A DNA stretch of 64,000 nt, taken from positions 2,790,001-2,854,000 of the forward strand of contig CM074134.1 in the NCBI GenBank assembly GCA_037178625.1, written 5' to 3'. Origin of the DNA: Skeletonema tropicum (lineage: Eukaryota > Bacillariophyta > Thalassiosirophyceae > Thalassiosirales > Thalassiosiraceae). Below, one piece after another: positions 32,054 to 50,173 of this stretch. The position numbers and the translations under genes were made by a program. The notes under the pieces were generated by a model. It ran no database searches, was not told the origin of the DNA, and worked only from the letters and a program-made list of their open reading frames with translations. Position 1 is the stretch's first letter; each line of letters begins with the position of its first letter.

Positions 32054-32483
32054 TGTTAAGTTGTGCTTGTAACTGCTATTAATAACAAAGACTTTTGCTT
32101 TTGTTTATATGAAATGGACGAGTTGAAAATTAGTTCCCTGTTTTAATGATCGAGATGGCGATCTTGATATTGTGAAGTGCACGGCTGCTCAATAGAGACT
32201 ATTCTCTTTCTCTCTGGGCATGAGAAAGAACCACCAATCTCTTGTTCCGAGAGAGAGAGGCACGGCGCACAGCTTGGTTGGATGTGGCTGGAGGAGTTTT
32301 TTTTGGTCTTGCTTTTAAGTCTTGCTTGCATGTGAATGTTTCTGAAGGTTGAGACAGTTACGATAACAGGTAAGTCGCCTCTGAGAGGGACTACCAGACG
32401 TACTTTCAAAATTCTATTGCACTACGCTTCTATCTTTGGCCAGAACTTTGATGTAAGTAGATGAGCGAGAGGACAATAGTCAA

Positions 32484-32715
32484 ACCGTTTACTAGATAGC
32501 ATTTTTTATTGTGAAACTTTTTTATTCTCAGCACTTTTTATAGAGCTGCAGCATCTTTTATTCCTCATTCCGCATCTTTTATTAATTTAGGGATACCTTT
32601 AATTTAGTCAATTATTACACTAGTTATTAAGTTTTTTGAGCATTTTTTATTCCAACAATTTATATTATTGGCAACTTATAATCTTCCACTTGTAACCTTC
32701 CCAGCATCTTTTATT
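32484..32715. repeat. left terminal and subterminal repeats of the transposon
   Basis: After the terminal repeat, the phrase GCATTTTTTATT/GCATCTTTTATT recurs about seven times up to 32715. The right end (about 40350-40526) has the same phrase in inverse orientation (AATAAAAGTTGCC, AATAAAAAGTGC). Repeated subterminal motifs are commonly transposase-binding sites. Confidence 0.7.
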
Positions 32716-32837
32716 GACTTGCCGAAAGACGTAATCACAGCCAATGAATAAGATATAGTATAAGATCTTCACAACAACGAAGCAAAAGATATTTCTATCT
32801 AGCACATTTTCAAATTTACAACACTATCCATCAAATT

Positions 32838-34780
32838 TGATCTCAAAAGAAGGTCTACAGATCTAGCAGGGAGAAAGACTGACACATCACTTAGTACATC
32901 GCTGCTGTTCGGCTTGTTTGCTGCACAATTGCGCTTCTACACGCAGAGGGACATCACAGAGAAGCTCTCAGTCGATATTGGACTTATTGGTGTGTGTACT
33001 ACATCGCTCATACCACTTTTCATTGAGGTTTGTTTCATAGGAGGCGTCTAGATCTGATCTCAAAAGAAGGTCTACAGATCTAGCAGGGAGAAAGACTGCC
33101 GCATCGCTTAGTACATCGCTGCTGTTCGGCTTGTTTGCTGCACAATTGCGCTTCTACACGCAGAGGGACATCACAGAGAAGCTCTTAGTCAATATTGGAC
33201 TTATTGGTGTGTGTACTACATCGCTCATACCACTTTTCATCGAGGTTTGTTTCATAGGAGGCGTCTAGAGTTACAGATCTAGCAGGGAGAAAGAGTGCCG
33301 CATCGCTTAGTACACCGCTGCTGTTCGGCTTGTTTGCTGCACAATTGCGCTTCTACACGCAGAGGGACATCACAGAGAAGCTCTCAGTCGATATTGGACT
33401 TATTGGTGTGTGTACTACATCGCTCATACCACTTTTCATCGAGGCCTATTTCATAGGAGGCGTCTAGAGTTACAGATCTAGCAGGGAGAAAGAGTGCCGC
33501 ATCGCTTAGTACGTCGCTGCTGTTCGGCTTGTTTGCTGCACAATTGCGCTCCTACACCCAGAGGGACATCACAGAGAAGCTCTCAGTCGATATTGGACTT
33601 ATTGGTGTGTGTACTACATCGCTCATACCACTTTTCATCGAGGCTTAGTTTCATAGGAGGCGTCTAGAGTTACAGATTTAGCAGGGAGAAAGACTGCCGC
33701 ATCGCTTAGTACATCGCTGCTGTTCGGCTTGTTTGCTGCACAATTGCGCTTCTACACGCAGAGGGACATCACAGAGAAGCTCTTAGTCAATATTGGACTT
33801 ATTGGTGTGTGTACTACATCGCTCATACCACTTTTCATCGAGGTTTGTTTCATAGGAGGCGTCTAGAGAGTTACAGATCTAGCGGGGAGAAAGAGTGCCG
33901 CATCGCTTAGTACATCGCTGCTGTTCGGCTTGTTTGCTGCACAATTGCGCTTCTACACGCAGAGAAGCTCTCAGTCGATATTGGACTTATTGGTGTGTGT
34001 ACTACATCGCTCATACCACTTTTCATCGAGGCCTATTTCATAGGAGGCGTCTAGAGTTACAGATCTAGCAGGGAGAAAGACTGCCGCATCGCTTAGTACA
34101 TCGCTGCTGTTCGGCTTGTTTGCTGCACAATTGCGCTTCTACACGCAGAGGGACATCACAGAGAAGCTCTCAGTCGATATTGGACTTATTGGTGTGTGTA
34201 ATACATCGCTCATACCACTTTTCATCGAGGCCTATTTCATAGGAGGCGTCTAGAGTTACAGATTTAGCAGGGAGAAAGACTGCCGCATCACTTAGTACCT
34301 TGCTGCTGTTCGGCTTGTTTGCTGCACAATTGCGCTTCTACACGCAGAGGGACATCACAGAGAAGCTCTCAGTCGATATTGGACTTATTGGTGTGTGTAC
34401 TACATCGCTCATACCACTTTTCATCGAGGCCTATTCCTGAGGAGGCGTCTAGAGTTACAGATCTAGCAGGGAGAAAGAGTGCCGCATCGCTTAGTACATC
34501 GCTGCTGTTCGGCTTGTTTGCTGCACAATTGCGCTTCTACACGCAGAGGGACATCACAGCGAATCTCTCAGTCGATATTGGACTTATTGGTGTGTGTACT
34601 ACATCGCTCATACCACTTTTCATCGAGGCCTATTTCATAGGAGGCGTCTAGAGTTACAGATTTAGCAGGGAGAAAGACTGCCGCATCGCTTAGTACGTCG
34701 CTGCTGTTCGGCTTGTTTGCTGCACGATTGCGCTCCTACACGCAGAGGGACATCACAGAGAAGCTCTCAGTCGATATTGC
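32838..34780. repeat. tandem array, ten units of about 199 bp
   Basis: The phrase GGCTTGTTTGCTGCAC recurs at 32911, 33128, 33327, 33526, 33726, 33927, 34113, 34312, 34511 and 34710. Spacing is 199-201 bp except for the first interval (217) and one unit with a short deletion (186). Units are over 90% alike by eye. The array ends about 27 bp before the OTU start codon, so it is the promoter or leader of the element. A hydrophobic translation is possible in single units, but stops (TAG at the TCTAGAG joint) break it. Confidence 0.95.
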
Positions 34781-34806
34781 TGGTCATCTAGATACTTCTT
34801 GATAAA

Positions 34807-36603
34807 ATGGCCGAAGAGGCTGAGGCTGAGGCGCCTGATCCTTTCATCAACTTGGTCAGAGGTGATGATGTAGATTTTCAGGTTAGATTCATGGTTAGTG
34901 CTGAAAGATCTAGAGTCATGCTCCAGGTTCTAGACTTTAGAACTGAGTTCAGAAATGAGGTCATAAATGGTGGTCCTCTTGATCATGGTGATGGAAGAGT
35001 CATGATTTACAATCTTAACTCTGATGATGAATCAGACGAGGACGTTGCGTTGCTGAGGCCTAATGTTAGACAACATTTAACAGATCTGTTTGCTGTTGAG
35101 CATGGTCTGAATGATGTTGATACCGTGGAAGATGTTGGTGTGATTATCAATGTTGCAGGTGATGGTCATTGTCTTCATCGTGCTTTTATGGCTGGTCTTT
35201 ATGATTAGGCAGTCGAGCCCTTGTATTTGTTCGGTCAAGGTTTTGGTGATGATGGTGCAAGTGCTAGATTAGCACACTTTGAGAATTTGAGTAACAACTT
35301 TATGAGCTCTTGGAGGGAAAGAATACGTCGACACTTGGAAGCTAATCAGAGTCTATTTGTTTCGTCCAATCATAAGATTAGAGACGTAGCTTTCTCTGAC
35401 CACGACAGATGCACTTGGATTGAAACTGACCGTAGGACATCGAACGTCAAAGCAGAGTTCTTGGACAGGATTTGGAATGCAAATACAGACTTTAACAGGC
35501 CTGTGGGACCCAATTTTTGGAATGGGAATGCAGTCATTCTTGTCTTGTGTCATTTCTGGAGGCGAACTGTTGTCCACTACTCATCACCTCCAAATGGAGG
35601 TAGACACTGCTTCATTGCATATTGGAGCAATAATATCTGCAAGCTTCGAGTCCACGTTTTTGGTGCAAGATGGGTGACCCCTCCTGAAGGTGCAATTTGT
35701 TTGCACCATGATGGAAGTCATTACAGGTATATTAGTACCATTAGGAGGGACCCATCTCTACAATCTCTGTATGATACGATTCAGACAAATTATAAGAAGG
35801 GAACAGTTCTTACCTTGCCTTACAGTGAGATTAGGGAATTTGCTGGGACCAAAATCGTTCTTTGGTGGCGCCGGAAGCAGTTTGAAGCTCGATGCAAAGA
35901 TCGATGTGCATGTGCTACCTCCGTTCCTTCGAAGGCTGTAGCTGCAGCTGCAAGTCAATCTGTGCATGATCACACTGAATATGAGATTAGGGAATTTGCT
36001 GGGACCAAAATCGTTCTTTGGTGGCGCCGGAAGCAGTTTGAAGCTCGATGCAAAGATCGATGTGCATGTGCTACCTCTGTTCCTTCGACGGCTGTAGCTG
36101 CAGCTGCAAGTCAATCAGTGCATGATCACACTGAATATGAATATGACGATGATATACCTTTTTATGCTCGGCCTGATAAACAATCTCTTGAACTTGATGG
36201 AGGGATCCCTAGTTCTTATGAAGAAAATCTTTTGGGAACATTCGATCCGCTTGCGGACTGTAACACATCATCTGAAAGGGAAGAGTTGATTGGCAATGCT
36301 GGCCTTGGCTTTGGGCTTGTGCACGAAATGAGTACGCTTCATCAGGATCGTGATTTGCTTTATTCATTCTTGCGATCAAATGCATGGTGTATCAAAGGAA
36401 CAGTTGATGAATTTTTTAGTTGGCTACTGGGTGAAGACATTGATTCAATGGATTCATTAAAGCTGGCTGTTTCGGAGAATGTTGGTTATTGGAAAGAAAT
36501 GATGCAAGGAAATGGAAGCTGTGGATTGAAGAAGTTCACAATCAAACCTTTTGTGACTGCTATCAACAACTATGACTGTGAAACAACCATCTGCAATTGC
36601 TGA
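34807..36603 (+). CDS. OTU-type cysteine protease ORF with in-frame amber codon
   Basis: The ATG at 34807 opens MAEEAEAEAPDP. GDGHCLHRAF (Cys 122) matches the OTU nucleophile block GDGxCL(F/Y)RA, and the later CLHHDGSHYRYIS supplies the expected catalytic His. A TAG at 35206-35208, twelve residues after the Cys, interrupts an otherwise continuous frame of 599 codons; no splice sites remove it. A 156-bp tandem duplication (from about 35827 and 35983) doubles a 52-residue block beginning EIREFAGTKIVLWW. OTU enzymes are deubiquitinases; several eukaryotic DNA transposons carry one, possibly to stabilise the transposase. The amber may be inactivating, be read through, or be a sequence error. The 3' end overlaps the next gene's ATG by 32 nt. 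Confidence 0.8.
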
Positions 36604-39600
36604 AGATTCAAATGGTCTCGTACACTTGCCACAGCTGAAGCCTCCGCCAGAGTCACTGCTCAAGCATCCGCCTGAATCACTACTGAATCCTCCGCCGGAA
36701 TCACTGCCCAAGCCTCCACCTGAGTCAAAGCGCAAGCCTCCTCCGGAATCACTGCTCAAGCCTCCGCCTGAGTCAAAGCGCAAGCCTCCGTCCGAATCAC
36801 AGCTGAAGACTACTCATGGAACACTGCTCAAGCCTCCGCTGGAATCACTGCTAAAGTCGCTGCCTGAATCAAGCCAGACACCCGAATCACAGCAAAAGCC
36901 TGCTTCAACTCCCATGTCCAAGAAGATATTTTGTACAACTAATTTGAACAAGATTGCTTCTTCACCTAGCATGAGCCGGTATCCAATGTTCCATGATTTT
37001 GTCCACCATGACGAAGAAGAGTATTGGAAGTTCCTGCCTTTCGATAGTGAAGATGAGATTGTCTTCCATGTCAATCAAAAAGAACTTGTTGGAAGAATTC
37101 ACACCACTCAGATTGACAATACATTGACTTCGGTTTCCTTCACTCGTGCATTCAACAAAGAAGGCCCTGGGGAATGGTTTCAGGACAGACTTTATTCTGT
37201 AGAACACCCCAATCTTCGTCATGTATCCTTTCGTTCAACAAATGCTGATACGTTGAAAGTTCCTTCTCAGCAACAAGGTAGGAGAGGAAAGCGACCTTCT
37301 CATCCTTTCATTGCTCTTTGGAAAGGATGCTGTACAGGTTCAAACTACAGGAAGAAGGAGAGACAGTATTTCTGCACTACCGAATACATAGGCGGACTTG
37401 ATTATGCTGAATTACTCAAATTTTCCCAGAGCAGTTCATCAACAACGACCCTCATCAAATTCAGGGTCAAATTCACAGGTAGATGTTTCCATCATTCACG
37501 AGATAGTCATGGCATTCTCAAAGGGCGTGCAAGAAAGAGGAGAAGGGACGAGGTCAGTTGACTTATTTTGAATTTGGCCTTGGCTGCCGTGTAAGAGTTC
37601 ATTCTAATCCATAAGAATATTGTTCCTTTTGTTCTTATCTCTTTATTTGTATCTGCATAGGTGTTTCAATCTAAGAAGAAATCGAAAGAGATGACGAAAC
37701 ATCTCATAGGAAAGATGTGCCGTACCAAGCTCAGCTGTAACAATACCAGCGGGGAGGTAACAGATGTGAAGACAATATACAACCTCAGATATGAGGCAAA
37801 ACAGCTGGAAAAGAAGAGGAAGGGGATACGTCCAGATGTTCCAAACTACGAAAATATTCGTTATGCAGCAGAGAATACACGGGAGCAAGACCTCGAAATG
37901 CGCAAAGCCAATGGTGATCATTGCATTGCTGTCCCTGGGATACTTCAAACATTTGAAGTATATCCAACATTCAATATACATCTTCATGGACGAAATATGT
38001 TATTGGTAGCTGCTCTTTTAGCTTCAGAAAAGCGGCTTGTTATGGGCATTGATGCTACGGGCAATTTGCTCAATGTCCCCAACTCAAGTTTTGATGGTAA
38101 AATTCAGCATACTCTCATGACAATTCAAGCATCTGAGTGCCTCCTACAGGAAGAAGATGCCGGAAATTACGGCGACAATTTGTTTCACCCTGTAAGAGTT
38201 GCTGAGCGGGCATCTCCGAGCAACAAGACATCGGACTTCTCTGCATGGATTATACAACTCAGGAAAGATACAATGACAGTCACCGAATCATATCCTGGCG
38301 CTGGAGATGGTATCGACCCTATTCCGTCTGTAGTGAAGATGGATTGTGCACTGGAATTAGCACATGGATGTCTAGAGGGATTTCGCAGCAATCATCATGT
38401 TGCAACAGGCCAATTGTACAACAACATTTTTAACTACATTTTGCGTCGCCATGATTCCCTCATATTGGACGCCAAAGATGACTGTGATGTGAAAAGAGTG
38501 TCAAAGATCACATACAGTCGGATACTTGCACACAGTCCCTGCATTATCAAGCAGTGCAAATTACATGTGCACCGGGCTGTGAGTAGCTACAGAAAGAACA
38601 AGACAAATAAACCCATCGAGTTCCGGATTCACTCTGAAGCTTTCGACCAGATCTTTTTACTTATTGCGAATGAAATGACGGCAATAGGCAGCATGTCCGA
38701 GCTGATTGTGCGACTAAGCATCTTTGTTGCGCTATTTGAAACAGAGTATATACAATGTCCTTTGTTTGATATGAACTCTGAAGTGCACGCTCATCATGAA
38801 ACACAACTGGCAGAAACAGTTGCTGCAAAAATGAATACAGTTGCAACAGAAGAGATGGAGAAGATGCTGATTCCAACAGATGAAGAAATGGATTCTTGTA
38901 TTCAGAGGGAGCTGGATAATGCAAGGGAAGGCAAGCGTATCATTTTTAACAGCCACCTTGACGCTCGTACTGTTATCGATAGAATGAAGCAGGATATCAA
39001 TTTTGGAGTGACATATCTGGAATCAATCGACAGTAGTGCAAAGAAAGGCAAGGTAAAAATTTGTTTGGTCTATTACTGTTACAGAAGAGAGGCGGACAAC
39101 ACAGTACACGTGTCACCAAGAAAATACGGAAGCTTCTCTGTGGAAGTAGATTTGCCACACATGTGTGGCAAGTTGCGTAACCCACTGTACTCTCCAACTG
39201 CTGCCAGATACCTATTATTAGAGTGGATGAGCCGTTCTGCATTGTGGTCACAGCAGCCCATCAGTGTTGCAGAAAAGGCTATGGATGCACGTATATTCAA
39301 CAACAATCAAAGTCTAGAAGGTACATTCTGCTGTGAAAAGCATGGGGTGAGCACATTCGCAGAAGATTTTGGAGACATATCATCCATGGTTCATCGAAGA
39401 TACAATGACTCCATCGAAGAAGGGAGATTATTTGCGATGCAAATCAAGAAATCAGAGGCCCTTCTAAAGTCGAGGCGATTGAAACGTCAGAAAAAGGGAC
39501 ACCCAAAGAAAGATGATGATTCGGACGACATGGTATGGAAGGGTGCGCCTCGCTCAGTCAAAGGTATGCTTGATCAGTGGAATGACATGATGCACCGAGC

Positions 39601-39817
39601 TCTCAGGATTGCCCGAGATAATGGAGAAGTTGAATACAAAGACAATGTGAGAATATCCAAGTATAGAGTGATGAGGAAATTTGCAGATGAAACTGATAGC
39701 TCCTTTATGAGTGAGACAACTTTCAAGAACTGGCTTGCAGGCGAGCGGAAAGCTCCACTGGACAATGACTGGACAAGAGTCATTAAGAAATTTTCTGACA
39801 AGCATACGACAAAGTAA
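36572..39817 (+). CDS. DDE-type transposase, two exons, 1,045 aa
   Basis: Exons 36572-37552 and 37661-39817. The 108-bp intron has donor GAG|GTCAGT and acceptor TGCATAG, phase 0, with no stops in the 3,138-nt join. N-terminus: about fourteen PPES-type Pro/Glu/Ser repeats. Next comes a zinc-finger-like Cys/His module (CCTGSNYRKKERQYFC, then FTGRCFHHSRDSHG, GRARKRR) like the DNA-binding fingers of Mutator-type transposases. The core has MGIDATGNL (Asp 458) and VVKMDCALELAHGCLEGF (Asp 555) as candidates for the first two catalytic acids; I could not fix the third. The C-terminus holds a helix-rich, Lys-rich segment. As the only transposase in the bounded element it should act on the terminal repeats. 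The superfamily follows mainly from the 9-bp target duplication. Confidence 0.78.
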
Positions 39818-40535
39818 GACTCTTTGATGACCGCTTCATTCTCTGGCTCAATGCCCTCTCTTGCCACACTAGCGGCTTTTCATCTTCTCTCTCTCTCATC
39901 TCCGTTGCTAAACTAACAGATCTAGGGTGTATCATACCTGCAGGCTTTTCTACTCTCTTTCTCTTAATATCATACTCTATTACTTACTAGAAGCTCCATT
40001 GTCGTGCATGTCAGAATTGTCGTACACTTGTCATTATAAACTTAATTGTCATGGTCATGGACTTACTTGTCATGGACTTACTGGTGGTGCAGTGTATTTA
40101 GTAGAGGATTGGGTTCGATCTGGTATACGACAATGACGGAAAAGTTGCATGAACTGATTGGGATAAAGACCAAAGAAGTTGTAGCAATCATGTCGGCTGA
40201 TTTCATCAATTCTGCGGTTTCGTTCGGATTGGAACCGATGTCTTTGACGAACAAAGATAGATAGCATATGGACGCTACCGAGCTACTTTGGATCCTCCCG
40301 ATGGAAAAGATATGCCTTGTACGCTGGCCCACGCCCACGAAACGCCAACAAAAATAAAAAGTGCTGGTAAGAGCGGGTAATAAAAGTTGTCCGGGTACAT
40401 AAATTACTAGTGTCTCCAAAAGCTGTCAGAAAGAGATGATTCTTTAAATATATTACTTGCTGGGATAGTAATAAAAGTTGCCGGAATAAAAAATTCTAGA
40501 TTAAAAAGTGCTAACTAGTAACCTATAATAGTCAA

Positions 40536-42219: not shown

Positions 42220-43932
42220 TCAATCATGTTGAACGCTCGGGGCATAATCCTTCCACATACGAGGCCTCACATGACGAATACCTTCACCCACAAGCCCAAC
42301 ACCAGCTCCAGCAGCGGCCCCAATACCGGCAGCGGTCCCAACGCTGCCAGCAGCACTGGTCTCTACTGCTGCTACTGTAGCCCCCACCCCAGCAGCAGCC
42401 GCCGCCCCGGTCTCTACTCCTACGGCTGTAGCTGTAGTAGCAGCAGCAGCAGCAGTTCCTATTCCAGCAGCAGCCGTTCCAACCTCCGCCGCTGCTACTG
42501 TAGCCCCCACCCCGGCAGCAGCCGCCGCTCCGGCCTCTACTCCTACGGCTGTAGTAGCAGCAGCAGCAGTTCCTATTCCAGCAGCAGCCGTTCCAACCTC
42601 CGCAGCTGCTACTGCAGCTCCTACCCCCGCAGCAGCCGCCCCCGCCTCTCCCATAGCAGCAGCTGCTACTCCAACAGCAGGGGCCGCAGCTCCTCCAGTG
42701 GCCATTACAATTGTAGCACCCAGAACGGCACCAGCAACAATACTAGCTGCTAATATAACTCCCTTTGGTGGAGCCATTGCCTTTTTCAGATCAGCAGCTT
42801 TCTTTTTGAATACCTCCGCTTGTTCTACCAAGTCTTCAGATGACTGCAAGATGGATTCGGCGTCTCCGACGTTTTCCAGCATCTTCGCAATGTTTTGCTC
42901 CATTGCCATCTTTAGCTCGCGAAGCTCTTCAGGGACGCACTCCTCATTCTCCATGTCATAGTGCAATGTGAGGTTATCAAGTTCCATGTTCATCGTTGCC
43001 ACAGCGTCCTTTCCATTCTTTTGCAGCCTTTTGATAGTAGCATCCCTTTCTTCGCCATCAGCAACAAATTTATCATAAAGATGTGGAAGTTCATTCATGA
43101 ATGCAGTTGCGTAGGCTGAAGAAAATTTATCAGTGGTGACAAGAACGTAGAGTTCGTCTCGTTTCCCACGAAGAAAATAGTGCCATAAGCGTAAGCCAAC
43201 TTCGAGTTCCCTATGAAAACAATAACTCTGGCCTGATTGCAATTTGTTATACATCACCTTTACAATTGGGTTGATATATGCATCTCCGATAAGTCCATCA
43301 ACAACTGTTCTCTTCATCACGAATTCTGTGGCCTCATCTGTTGAAGTGTTGGTGTTGGACGCACCGTGTCTGCACACACCGACAAACTCGACCCGTTCTT
43401 TGTAATCTTCGAGCAAGGGTGATATCTTCCAGTGGAATTTGGATGGCCTGCATGGAGTGGTTTTGAATAAAAAGTTGGGTTGCAAGTACATGACGTTGTG
43501 AGACTTGAAACTGAAGTAGCCCGTGCCTGGATCACGCTTCATCTCAAATACCTCACATTCGCCGATTTTATTACGGTATTTGGTCAGTGATGTTTCACCC
43601 AAGAAAGGAATGTACGTCTTGCGGCGGTTCGATAGAAGCGATCCTTCGGTGGTACAGATTGCGACATACTTCCAGGTCGCTAGATGGTTCATGAAATCGG
43701 AAGATTTGATAGGATTAGGATTATTTTTCTCGATCACATGTCCTTCAGGAGTCAAGGTCCATCCAAGATCGATAATGGACCCATCTTTGTTCAATGGGAT
43801 GAGATGATGCTTAAATCTATCAGAGTCGCGTTCAGTAGCGGTGGAAACTTTGGGGTTGACAAATGCATTGACTAGATAACCGCGTTCAGAATGCACATGC
43901 ACATAGGGAAGGGCAAGAGAATTGATGGCCAT
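42220..43932 (-). CDS. beta-trefoil / longin / R-SNARE-like protein with Ala-Gly repeat tail (unit A)
   Basis: 570 aa, single exon. Residues about 85-170 (WKYVAICTTEGSLLSN, then YFSFKSHNVMYLQPN) resemble a fascin-type beta-trefoil. Residues about 217-290 (SYCFHRELEV, then LYVLVTTDKFSSAYATAFM) resemble a longin domain. Residues about 334-390 (LRELKMAMEQNIAKMLENV, then EDLVEQAEVFKKKAADLKKA) follow the R-SNARE heptads of VAMP2 and VAMP7 without gaps, but the zero-layer Arg is Asn 354. A hydrophobic segment starts at 391 (GVILAASIVAGAVLGATIV) and leads into three Ala/Gly/Val repeats of about 39 residues to about 545, then a short basic tail. Known longin R-SNAREs drive vesicle fusion with the helix just before a C-terminal anchor; the N-terminal trefoil and long tail are unusual. 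Domain calls are by eye. Confidence 0.72.
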   Translation of the reverse strand: MAINSLALPYVHVHSERGYLVNAFVNPKVSTATERDSDRFKHHLIPLNKDGSIIDLGWTLTPEGHVIEKNNPNPIKSSDFMNHLATWKYVAICTTEGSLLSNRRKTYIPFLGETSLTKYRNKIGECEVFEMKRDPGTGYFSFKSHNVMYLQPNFLFKTTPCRPSKFHWKISPLLEDYKERVEFVGVCRHGASNTNTSTDEATEFVMKRTVVDGLIGDAYINPIVKVMYNKLQSGQSYCFHRELEVGLRLWHYFLRGKRDELYVLVTTDKFSSAYATAFMNELPHLYDKFVADGEERDATIKRLQKNGKDAVATMNMELDNLTLHYDMENEECVPEELRELKMAMEQNIAKMLENVGDAESILQSSEDLVEQAEVFKKKAADLKKAMAPPKGVILAASIVAGAVLGATIVMATGGAAAPAVGVAAAAMGEAGAAAAGVGAAVAAAEVGTAAAGIGTAAAATTAVGVEAGAAAAAGVGATVAAAEVGTAAAGIGTAAAAATTATAVGVETGAAAAAGVGATVAAVETSAAGSVGTAAGIGAAAGAGVGLVGEGIRHVRPRMWKDYAPSVQHD

Positions 43933-45609: not shown

Positions 45610-45807
45610 GTCCTAAAACCTTTCTTTGTTTGCATGCTATGGTGGCCTCATCCCACAATATCCTGCACTCGGCCCCCATTAGTGTGTACGATAACACACA
45701 CCAAGTCCGTTGATCATGTGAAAATCTGACTGGAAATGTGCTGTGTGTTTGGTCATTGGAAACAAGGCGAAATGCCTGCTTTTTTGTCCACACCGAAGTT
45801 GCGATCA
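45610..45807. repeat. about 195-bp repeat, copy 1 (pairs with 50458-50648)
   Basis: Both copies run from CCTAAAACCTT.CTTTGTTTGC to ACACCGAAGTTGCGATCAC with small differences. They mark the outer limits of duplicated unit B. Confidence 0.85.
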
Positions 45808-46420
45808 CCTTCCATCCAAAACGAGGTGGCCTGCAGGGAGTGGTGTTAAATGTATGGTTGGGTTGCAAGTACTATCGTTGTGAGACCTGAAGCTGAAACA
45901 CTCCGATTCTCCGTCATATTCAACCTGAAATATCTCAAAGTTTCCAATTTCTTTCCTGTATTCAGTGAGGGATGTTTCACCTACCAAGAAGGGAATGTTC
46001 GTCGCTCGGCGGTAGGACAAAAACTTTCCATCGATGGTGCGGATTGCGACATACATATCTCCAGGTCGCTAGATGGCTTAGGGGTAATCAGAATACCCAA
46101 TTGGCAATTGCCTATTATCTAGGATATGTTCATCTTGTGAGAATGACCAGTCCAGATCGATGAGGACCCGTCTTCATTCAAATAAATAAATACAAAGTTA
46201 ATCAGATTAGATATCTATGATACTAAAAGGGACCTGCTTCGGTACAACAGGACCCGTCTTCATTCAGTGGGATCATTATTTGATGCTTGAACTTATCAGA
46301 ATCAAGTTCTTCTTCGGTAGCGGTGGAAACTTTTGGGTTGACAAATGCATTGACTAGGTGACCACGGTCACAATAAAATTGAACGAAGGGAAGAGGCTGA
46401 GAAGTGGTGTCGATGTCCAT
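45805..46420 (-). pseudogene. truncated beta-trefoil-like fragment, unit B
   Basis: The ATG at 46420 gives MDIDTTSQPLPFVQFYCDRG as in unit A. The frame is broken by a 69-bp retroposed insertion at 46181-46249 (with 17-bp target duplication) and by indels. The trefoil part (YVAIRTIDGKFLSYRR, then GETSLTEYRKEIGNFEIFQV) can be read to about 45805. No longin or SNARE part is present. Confidence 0.75.
46181..46249 (-). mobile_element. 69-bp retroposed (SINE-like) insertion
   Basis: Absent from the paralogous site in unit A (about 31890). It is flanked by the 17-bp direct repeat GGACCCGTCTTCATTCA (46164-46180 and 46250-46266). Its left end, AATAAATAAATAC then AAAGTTAATC, is shared with the insertion at 46922-46944, and the other ends differ. 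Read on the minus strand this means a fixed 3' end with a TATTTATTTATT tail and a variable 5' truncation. Confidence 0.8.
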
Positions 46421-46921
46421 TGTTAAGTTGTGCTTGTAACTGCTATTTATAAAACAAAGACTTCTGTTTATGAAATGGACGAGTTGAAAATTAGTTCTCT
46501 GTTTTAATGATCGAGATGGTGATCTTGAATTGTGAAGTGCACGGCTCCTCAATAGAGACTATTAATTTTCTCTCTGGGCATGAGGAAGAACCACCAATCT
46601 CTTGTTCCGAGAGAGAGAGGGGCGCACAGCTTGGTTGGATGTGGCTGGAGGAGTTTTTTTGGTCTTGCTTATTAGTCTCTAGCTTGCATGTGAATGTTTC
46701 TGAATGTTGAGACAGTTACCATAACAGGTAAGTCGCCTCTGAGAGGGACTACCAGACGTACTTTCAAAATTCTATTGCACTACGCTTCTATCTTTGGCCA
46801 GAACTTTGATGTAAGTAGATGAGCAAGAGGACAATAGTCAACACGGTTACACAATTAACTTATCATGATGACGGGGTGCGATCTGGGAAATATAGAGCTT
46901 CTGCAGCACATGTTCGTTATC

Positions 46922-46944
46922 AATAAATAAATACAAAGTTAATC
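46922..46944 (-). mobile_element. 23-bp retroposed insertion, severely truncated relative of 46181-46249
   Basis: Absent from unit A (about 40615). Flanked by the 15-bp duplication CACATGTTCGTTATC (46907-46921 and 46945-46959). The 23 bp are identical to the first 23 bp of the other insertion. Confidence 0.78.
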
Positions 46945-47216
46945 CACATGTTCGTTATCACTTATTAGCATAGATAATGTCGCCTCTTGAGGGCCCACCA
47001 GACGTACTTAAAAATTTCTGTTACATATAACTTATCATCATGACGACAGAAGATAGAGATAGAGAGAATCTCTGGCCCCGTCTGTTCTGCTGGCCCTATG
47101 CCTATGGTATGCCTACACGTTAATCAGCCGCGTTGGAAACTATGCATATTATTCTGCGTCACACTATTTCTTTCATCACATAAGATCAGCTAGGAAATCT
47201 ATACAAAGGCTTGAAC

Positions 47217-47852
47217 TCAAGCCAGCTCTCCTTCATAGAGTTTCTCCTCTGCACCATTCTTTGACGATGTGTGGGTAAGACTAGTACTTTTCTTGGACGC
47301 AGCAGAACGCCTAAGACGCCTCACGCGTATAAATCCAACTGAAATCTTTGCACGCTTCATGGCGTACGCAGCCACACCGGCCAAACCAACAAGCACGGCC
47401 AGACCGACGAGGAGCCCGGTCCTGGCGGAGGAGCCGCCTCCCATGGTTGCGTTGTGTTTGGCTAAGTGGGCAGATACGAAAGCAGACTTGGTACACTTCT
47501 CTTCATATTTTTTTGATCCGTGTGGATTTGCCTTGAACTCGATGCTGGCGGGGTCGATTAGTGCGTGCATCGTTGATGTTGTGAATTGGTCGCCTAATCT
47601 GGCTGCAACGAACGAGGATACATCGGCAATTACAGTTCCGGCATCACCACAGTCGGCACTGCTAGATGTAAGGTAGTCGCACAGATCTATCTTCTCCTTC
47701 AAAACAGATTTCCCAGCATACTTGGCGGTCACTTTTGCTTTTGTAGTGTTGCTCCATTCCGATGCAGCGGTAATCTCTACGGAAAGTGTATTATCGGTGC
47801 CATAATTGAGTTCCAAGTCCGTGAAGATTGAACCATCGCAAGAGAAAACCAT
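47217..47852 (-). CDS. single-pass membrane protein, possible ML-like ectodomain (unit B)
   Basis: 211 aa from MVFSCDGS, nearly identical to the unit-A copy at 40883-41521. Most differences are conservative and the reading frame is maintained, which suggests that both copies are or were under constraint. The frame is open for 17 more codons upstream, but no ATG is conserved there in unit A, so I chose the MVFSC start shared with the related MGFSC gene at 51583. Topology and tail (ending LYEGELA) as in unit A. Confidence 0.78.
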   Translation of the reverse strand: MVFSCDGSIFTDLELNYGTDNTLSVEITAASEWSNTTKAKVTAKYAGKSVLKEKIDLCDYLTSSSADCGDAGTVIADVSSFVAARLGDQFTTSTMHALIDPASIEFKANPHGSKKYEEKCTKSAFVSAHLAKHNATMGGGSSARTGLLVGLAVLVGLAGVAAYAMKRAKISVGFIRVRRLRRSAASKKSTSLTHTSSKNGAEEKLYEGELA

Positions 47853-48501
47853 GCTTATATTGTGATTGTCACTACAGGAAGGAGTAATAATATCAGGCAG
47901 CACCCGTGAGTAGCAAGCAATGCTTCGGCTGGTTGCTTATCAATTCCAAAGGATGTCTAAAAAATTGTGATGTGAGAGTCAAAAAAATTCCTGTACACTA
48001 CTATCCAACGACATGTCTTACAAAGCTTCTGAGATGTGCGCTGCGCGCTGCGCCAGGCGGAGGTGCATATTTTGTGAGGAGGTGAAGGTTTCTCGTCTTC
48101 TTTCGTCAAGACATCGTTTTTAGAAGAAATAGACCGTTACAGCAATAAAGGAATTAGTATCCTCTCGCTCACTTACTTACATTATTTGCCGTTGCATGCT
48201 ATTTGAAATTTGAGATGTTGAAGTGATCAAAGATCAGGCTATAAAAGTATGTACAGAGACGAGGTATTCATTGAAGTATTGCACATACGCAGCGGCATTG
48301 CCGAACCTATTTCAAGTTGTTGTCATATGCTCATGTATACAAATACAAATACTGCTCAAATGATATATGAGGCAAAAGACGTTGATGCATGAGCTATGTA
48401 ATGAAGGATAACAATTACTAGTCTGTCAGTGAGCAGTTTAGATTGAGTTAATGTGATTTGAAGTTAACCTATTTCCGAAGGACTTTTCCTTTTCACCCTG
48501 A

Positions 48502-50173
48502 TCAATCATGTTGAACGCTCGGAGCATAATATTTCCACATACGAGGCCTCACATGACGAATACCTTCACCCACAAGCCCAACACCAGCTCCTTCAGCGGC
48601 CCCAATACCGGCAGCGGTCCCAACGCAGCCAGCAGCACTGGTCTCTACTCCTGCTACTGTAGCCCCCACTCCGGCAGCAGCAGCCGCCCCGGTCTCTACT
48701 CCTACGGCTGTAGTAGTAGCAGCAGCAGCTCCTATTCCAGCAGCAGTTGTTCCAACCTCCGCCGCTGCTACTGTAGCCCCCAACCCGGCAGCAGCCGCCG
48801 CTCCGGCCTCTACTCCTACGGCTGTAGTAGCAGCAGCAGCTCCTATTCCAGCAGCAGCCGTTCCAACTTCCGCCGCTGCTACTGCAGCTCCTACCCCCGC
48901 AGCAGCAGCAGCTGCTACTCCAACAGCAGGGGCCGCAGCTCCGCCAGTGGCCATTACAATTGTAGCACCCAAAACGGCACCAGCAACAATACTAGCTGCT
49001 AATATAACTCCCTTTGGTGGTGCCATTGCCTTTTTCAGATCAGCAGCTTTCTTTTTGAATACCTCCGCTTGTTCTACCAAGTCTTCAGAAGTCTTCAAGA
49101 TGGATTCGGCTTCTCCGACGTTTTCCAGCATCTTCGCAATGTTTTGCTCCATTGCCATCTTTAGCTCGCGAAGCTCTTCAGGGACGCACTTCTCATTCTC
49201 CATGTCATAGTGCAACGTGAGGTTATCAAGTTCCTTGTTCATCATTACCACAGCGTCCTTTCCATTCGTTTGCATCCTTTTGATAGTAGCATCCCTTTCT
49301 TCGCCATCAGCAACATATTTCTCATAAAGACGTGGAAGTTCATCCATGAATGCAGTCGCGTAGGCTGAAGAAAATTTATCACTGGTGACAAGAACGTAGA
49401 GTGTGTCTTTGTTGCCACGAAGAAAATAGTGCCGTAAGCGTAAGCCAACTTCGAGTTTCCTATGAAAACAATAACTCTGGCCTGATTGCAATTTGTTATA
49501 CATCACCTTTACAATGGGGTTGATATATGCCTCTCCGATAAGGCCATCGACAGCTGTCTTCTTCATCACGAATTCTGCAGCCTCATCTGTTGAAGTGTTG
49601 GACGCACCGTGTCTGCACGTGACACCGACAAACTCGACCCGTTCTTTGTAATCTTCGAGCAAGGGCGAAATCTTCCAGGCGAACTTGGATGGTCTGCATG
49701 GAGTGGTTTTGAATGTCAAGTTGGGTTGCAAGTACATGTCGTTATGAGACTTGAAACTGAAGTAGCCCGTGTCTTCACGCTTCATCTGAAATACTTCAAA
49801 TTCGCCGATTTTACTACGGTATTCGGTCAGGGATGTTTCACCTACCAAGAAGGGAATGTTCGTCTTGCGGCGGTTCGACAGAAACGATCCTTTGGTGGTA
49901 CAGATAGCGACATACTTCCAGGTCGCTAGATGTTTCATGAAATCGGAAGATTTGATAGGATTATATTTCTCGATCACATGTCCTTCAGGAGTCAAGGTAC
50001 ATCCAAGATCGATGATGGACCCATCTTTGTTCAATGGGATGAGATGATGTTTAAATCTATCAGAGACACGTTTAGTAGCGGTGGAAACTTTCGGGTTGAC
50101 AAATGCATTGACTAGATAACCGCGTTCAGAATGAACATAAACGTAGGGAAGGGCAAGAGAATTAATTGATGGT
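48502..50173 (-). pseudogene. beta-trefoil / longin / R-SNARE-like gene, unit B, start codon out of frame
   Basis: Same architecture and high identity to 42220-43932: trefoil, longin-like (TLYVLVTSDKFSSAYATAFM), R-SNARE-like helix with the same Asn at the zero layer, and Ala/Gly/Val repeats. A 4-bp insertion (AATT, at about 50161-50168) just after the ancestral ATG shifts the frame, giving MTIN then stop. The rest stays open, and the next in-frame ATG is at 49938 (478 aa), which would lose about 80 residues before the trefoil. It may be a recent pseudogene or an N-terminally shortened protein. Small in-frame indels distinguish the repeat tails of the two copies. Confidence 0.72.

Follow-up and report, generated by a model that had tools for sequence, protein, structure and literature searches.

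A transposon of 8,043 bp was found in a 64,000-nucleotide stretch of the genome of the diatom Skeletonema tropicum (contig CM074134.1, positions 2,790,001 to 2,854,000 of the forward strand; this whole stretch is called the window, and all positions refer to it). The element occupies positions 32484-40526 between two copies of the 9-bp sequence AATAGTCAA. It is likely to be one copy of a recently active family of terminal inverted repeat (TIR) transposons whose single gene encodes a fusion of an OTU-like protease with a transposase, and we infer a role of the protease part in ubiquitin removal. The evidence consists of the ends of the element, its target site duplications (TSDs), an empty site in the same window, near-identical copies elsewhere in the genome, and the fused reading frame, which is seen in other copies as well as in a distant relative. 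The features of the element and its surroundings are as follows.

32475..32483, no strand: left TSD, AATAGTCAA, present as a single copy at the empty site
32484..40526, plus strand: whole element, with ends common to other copies
32484..32531, plus strand: left imperfect TIR (about 50 bp), beginning with ACCGTTTACTAG
32499..32715, plus strand: the left end contains GCAYYTTTTATT five times without mismatch; candidate transposase-binding sites
32838..34779, plus strand: about ten tandemly repeated units of 199/217 bp, placed after the left end and before the gene
34807..37552, plus strand: exon 1 of the gene for the OTU-transposase fusion; in this copy the frame is interrupted twice, by an in-frame TAG (35206-35208) and by a frame change near 36577
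35047..35740, plus strand: OTU-like cysteine protease domain (approximate limits), with the putative catalytic Cys at 35170-35172 and His at 35719-35721
36346..36576, plus strand: module of about 76 amino acids (aa) common to a host DnaJ/U-box protein
36630..36871, plus strand: P/K/S/E-rich 24-bp repeats (PPES linker), with a counterpart in the relatives P0007 and P0008
37553..37660, plus strand: GT-AG intron of 108 bp in phase 0, splicing predicted; the exon 1 frame of P0008 stops at the same place
37661..39817, plus strand: second exon, coding for the 718-aa transposase core
38051, 38342 and 39317 (or 39335), within exon 2: candidate catalytic D, D and E; CxxH at 38555-38566
40353..40526, minus strand: right end, with the right TIR (ending in ...CTAGTAACCTAT) and an inverted GCAYYTTTTATT
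40527..40535, no strand: right TSD, AATAGTCAA
46250..48354, plus strand: paralogous segment with the uninterrupted site, containing AATAGTCAA once at 46833-46841

An earlier note on this DNA had claimed a complete DNA transposon whose ends are fixed to the base, and this claim is borne out by the 9-bp duplication at both ends of the element, by the TIRs and by the ends shared with other copies. The TIRs do match, as the note had it, albeit imperfectly over about 50 bp: their alignment score of 38 compares to a mean of 6.8 (sd 3.9) for shuffled sequences, and none of 2,000 shuffles equalled it. The empty site, expected near 46829-46850, was located within the paralogous segment, which lacks the insert and is 92% identical to the joined flanks of the element. 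Since this segment holds the uninterrupted AATAGTCAA site, the insertion of the element must be later than the duplication of its flanks. The left flank is itself part of a local repeat, whose copies in the window (46250-48354, 45807-46180, 43445-43927 and 49648-50151) are about 70-97% identical.

The genome (78.4 Mb, 125 contigs) was searched for further members of the family. Six near-full-length matches to silicon transporters fit a diatom host, in agreement with the earlier note. The search with both termini, which the note had proposed as a check, identified other copies with the same ends. The left end matches 19 places. The right-end query gave at least 42 matches (40 of 129 candidates scored), of which 19 cover one 72-bp piece only. 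This piece, 40282-40353 in the right part of the element, matches at least 19 other genome places with 97% identity over the same 72 bases, and seems to be common to the element and an unrelated dispersed repeat. Exon 2 matches 24 places, and it is intact over all 718 aa in five of them, including the window copy. The five intact copies differ at only 2-15 of 2,154 bases (0.1-0.7%), from which it follows that the family moved recently. It is most likely a low-copy family of recently active TIR DNA transposons in a diatom. Both ends were readable in ten copies, five of which have clear TSDs. The earlier note had regarded a duplication of another length than 9 bp as evidence against its reading; three copies (the window copy, L036 and L038) conform to 9 bp, and two copies on contigs C16 and C19 have 10 bp, which in part goes against that reading. 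The ends of the latter two are about 15 and 12 kb apart and were paired by their place and matching repeat.

The evidence for a single gene comes from the other copies and from relatives. In L036, L037 and L040, one frame leads from the OTU domain via the linker and the PPES repeats into the N-terminal part of the transposase (820, 768 and 801 aa, respectively), and in L033 and L035 exon 1 is shortened yet open (391 aa). Both lesions of the window copy are private to it: of the six copies aligned at the TAG, only this one has it, and the frame change is likewise confined to it among the four copies that keep the stretch. L036 and L037 have a later frame change of their own, and L040 carries a 293-bp insertion. 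The same arrangement is found in the two relatives. P0008 (909 aa; 54% identity over the half covered by the search, 44% over the whole alignment) is one open reading frame (ORF) from the OTU domain to the end of the exon, where it reads ...NEVS and its window counterpart ...DEVS. In P0007 (72% identical), one ORF extends from the OTU domain into the N-terminal part of the transposase. As predicted from these frames, the fused protein would be about 1,630 aa long (about 915 + 718 aa) and would consist of the OTU domain, the linker, the 76-aa module, the P/K/S repeats and the part encoded by exon 2.

The earlier note had taken OTU and transposase for two independent genes of one element. The frames are separate in the window copy alone; because the stop codon and the frame change that separate them are missing from the other copies, and because other copies and both relatives read from OTU into the transposase, this interpretation is already largely refuted and very improbable. 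The note's spliced transposase with a PPES N-terminus stands in so far as the 1,045-aa frame (327 + 718 aa) and the GT-AG intron exist; this frame is the portion downstream of the frame change, to which its separate start is due. The window copy combines sound ends with a broken gene, and would therefore need transposase from another copy. At 35826-36140, the linker contains an in-frame 156-bp tandem duplication (98% alike) that is present in L036 and absent from L037; the length of the linker thus varies between copies.

The N-terminal domain was predicted to be OTU-like from its conserved Cys and His boxes and from a weak profile alignment to host OTU proteins. Neither GDGHCLHRA nor DG.HY varies among the window copy, P0007 and P0008 (three of three rows). 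The Cys box of L033 reads GDGNCLHRA, which is the commoner spelling in OTU proteins. Compared as a profile with three host OTU proteins, the domain reached a local score of 27.9; none of 100 column shuffles was as good, the highest of them scoring 24.3. In the global alignment the Cys boxes coincide, as do the HY boxes, and WNGN lies opposite WGG. The OTU part shares 57% identity with P0008 and the adjoining linker 12%, a difference that suggests purifying selection on the OTU part. The OTU sequence occurs at 11 places in the genome, all of them in this transposon family, and also in P0007 and P0008; the idea that a host gene fragment had been caught only in the window copy was rejected on these grounds. 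A sequence search of the PDB with the OTU part of L036 gave two weak irrelevant matches. The profile of the OTU region picked up ribosomal L29 and a few other matches, which fall in the linker and downstream of it. Of the OTU deubiquitinase ORF described in the earlier note, the OTU-like domain is retained on account of its boxes and its alignment to host proteins; it lacks a Pfam OTU match and is not a separate gene.

A host frame of 1,344 aa contains a stretch with 45-49% identity to the module of about 76 aa that follows the linker; over 148 aa, identity is 35%. This frame occurs at two places (L053 3170-7201, C11:841500-849000; and C11:898767); the one that was retrieved has Pfam matches to DnaJ and U-box, and a KH match just below the cut-off. 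The module is also present in P0008 (40%), and a sequence search of the PDB gave no match for it. U-box proteins are usually ubiquitin ligases. As a guess, the module may help the fusion protein to find partners in the ubiquitin system.

In the transposase, residues D131, D228, C299-x-x-H302 and E553 are invariant in six of six sequences, down to 32% identity. E559 is invariant likewise, such that E553 and E559 are both candidates for the third acid. The DDE-like motif order stated in the earlier note was hence recovered. An order of D-D-CxxH-E resembles that of the hAT/Mutator/P group. The assignment as a DDE-type transposase is a prediction from this motif order together with the TIRs and TSDs. 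A second, alignment-based protein search gave no further relatives, and a scan of IMG/VR with the transposase alignment yielded 64 pattern matches, none of which was confirmed. Two loci, L051 and L052 (C24 and C12), contain a decayed older relative without recognisable ends. Its transposase pieces are about 61-79% identical in protein; an insertion of about 7.5 kb, alike on both contigs, separates them.

The sequence GCAYYTTTTATT has six exact occurrences in the window, compared to 0.05 expected by chance. All are inside the ends of the element, five at the left and one, inverted, at the right (40353-40526), where four are counted if two mismatches to GCATTTTTTATT are allowed. These subterminal repeats are probable binding sites of the transposase. 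The ten-unit tandem array described in the earlier note was found as well, and the number of its units varies between copies of the family. All 95 array matches among those listed genome-wide fall in copies of this transposon; an unrelated satellite was therefore rejected as an explanation of the array.

Several observations weigh against the interpretation as a recently active TIR transposon with one OTU-transposase gene. No trustworthy TSD was seen in five of the ten copies read at both ends (L035, L037, L044, L045 and L048); note that L044 and L045 have a common left flank and are not independent. The whole fusion frame is intact in none of the copies examined. No Pfam or NCBIfam transposase family was listed for the transposase, for which matches were weak and below the cut-off or missing. 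Its best weak Pfam match, to the C-terminal part, is DrmE_C (best E 0.005, two of six members, under the cut-off), which is not a transposase family. The AlphaFold model of the transposase core is poor, with a mean predicted local distance difference test score (pLDDT) of 46, and the Foldseek list is without a meaningful PDB match. This structure prediction had been proposed in the earlier note as a means to locate the third acid; the invariant acids came from the alignment, with E553 and E559 as candidates for the third. The model of the OTU domain is likewise poor (mean pLDDT 32). With these low values, neither the RNase H fold nor the OTU fold is shown.

With respect to the OTU domain, the Pfam model PF02338 was not listed for the element at E<=10, although the same model finds seven places elsewhere in the genome, and the hhalign probability for the host OTU proteins is just 18% (local) or 22% (global). 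These values and the poor fold model would fit a domain that is no OTU protease and whose GDGHCLHRA box is a chance resemblance. This is nevertheless quite improbable, given that the Cys box, the WNGN/WGG motif and the HY box align in order with the host proteins, that the local score exceeds all shuffles, and that both boxes are invariant in the relatives.

A further point against the proposed role of the OTU domain comes from L033, L034 and L035, which lie at three different sites and share one internal deletion junction (window-equivalent 35660-37253). In L033 and L035, the deletion takes out the OTU His and the linker and leaves the transposase frame open; exon 2 is intact in all three copies. 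The OTU activity may consequently be dispensable, or these copies may have been moved by others that supplied it in trans. One could also argue that the domain is a polyprotein-processing protease that frees itself from the transposase, and not a deubiquitinase. It is N-terminal and fused through a long variable linker, and some viral OTU proteases perform both polyprotein processing and deubiquitination. The copies with a crippled OTU domain are also devoid of the linker and hence do not separate the two ideas; we regard self-processing as improbable and retain the OTU-like deubiquitinase as the preferred assignment.

The earlier note had further suggested a Mutator-like lineage; the element would then be a Mutator-like element (MULE) that has diverged strongly and picked up an OTU domain. 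Statements on published systems given here and below refer to excerpts of the cited papers. MULEs have TSDs of 8-11 bp, a range that includes the 9-10 bp of the element, and a diatom group of MULEs is listed (PMC6446971). Long TIRs are a further MULE trait; those of the element are imperfect and span about 50 bp. The MULE model PF10551 was listed for none of six members at E<=10 (HMMER filters drop most matches above 0.1), yet it finds 42 places in the genome, 35 of them over the cut-off and none at copies of the element. Furthermore, no SWIM (C.C...C.H), C2H2 or CCHC pattern is present in the ten sequences scanned. A CxxH after the second Asp, as seen here, is a trait of Mutator and hAT, and the D...D...CxxH...E order as a whole would be compatible with a MULE. 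At 325 residues, the spacing between the second D and the E is closer to that of Hermes/hAT than to that of typical MULEs. The proposed Mutator-like lineage, whose sole likeness was TSD length, is thus not supported by the profiles; Mutator membership is unproven, and a diverged MULE is in our view rather unlikely.

Other known families were compared as well. The profile check that the earlier note had asked for was run, and beside MULE no hAT and no KDZ transposase family was among the Pfam matches listed for the members; the same holds for integrases, and among the listed families neither Rep nor helicase exceeded the cut-off. A sequence search of the PDB with the transposase gave no match. 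hAT elements have TSDs of 8 bp, a length that none of the five clear TSDs shows. Zisupton TSDs also have 8 bp, compared to 9-10 bp here; KDZ/Zisupton elements are like the present one in being eukaryotic TIR DNA transposons whose transposase gene can accompany another enzyme, TET/JBP (PMC12730594). Helitrons and Helentrons resemble it in that their transposon proteins can carry OTU-like domains, and differ in their rolling-circle Rep/helicase proteins (PMC9741609, PMC6431247); the present element has TIRs and TSDs. A close parallel is Ginger1, in which one protein likewise unites an OTU domain with a DDE-type transposase; it has TIRs, and most families listed contain introns. However, Ginger1 carries its OTU or Ulp1 domain at the C-terminus, its transposase resembles Gypsy integrases, and its TSDs are 4 bp long (CCGG/CCGT; PMC2836005), whereas the present element combines an N-terminal OTU domain with 9-10 bp TSDs and has no integrase match. 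A soybean CACTA paper mentions, in the part available, an otubain only in a table of annotated BAC genes (PMC2613891).

Among the listed titles and abstract starts of open-licence papers, Repbase aside, none describes a transposon with 9-10 bp TSDs whose transposase is fused to an N-terminal OTU domain. The earlier note's suggestion of an undescribed lineage agrees with this outcome. The element belongs to a known kind, that of TIR DNA transposons carrying a ubiquitin-type protease in fused form. It is conceivable, and we put it forward tentatively, that the family represents a superfamily of eukaryotic DDE transposases that has not been described. Its polypeptide would unite the transposase with an OTU deubiquitinase at the N-terminus and a module shared with a host U-box protein, and the element would thus bring its own control of ubiquitin signals to the integration site.

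The most likely mode of action is as follows. The single gene would encode the fusion of OTU-like protease, variable linker, 76-aa module, P/K/S-rich repeats and DDE-type transposase. Its C-terminal half would bind the subterminal GCAYYTTTTATT repeats, excise the element by DDE chemistry and insert it elsewhere with a staggered cut of 9-10 bp, i.e. move it by cut and paste. The OTU half would accompany the transposase and strip ubiquitin either from the transposase itself or from chromatin or repair proteins at the site. Such removal of ubiquitin might keep the transpososome alive.

As the transposase is missed by Pfam and NCBIfam, elements of this type may go unannotated. Proteases of ubiquitin and SUMO are found repeatedly in transposons that are not related to one another, namely in Ginger1, Helitrons and some Mutators (PMC2836005). 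A role in transposition has been proposed, and the activity of transposon OTU domains was untried at the time of PMC9741609. The family described here, with its fused protease-like domain and a deletion type (L033, L034, L035) in which the OTU His is lost and the transposase frame stays open in two copies, would offer a ready comparison for the role of the protease.

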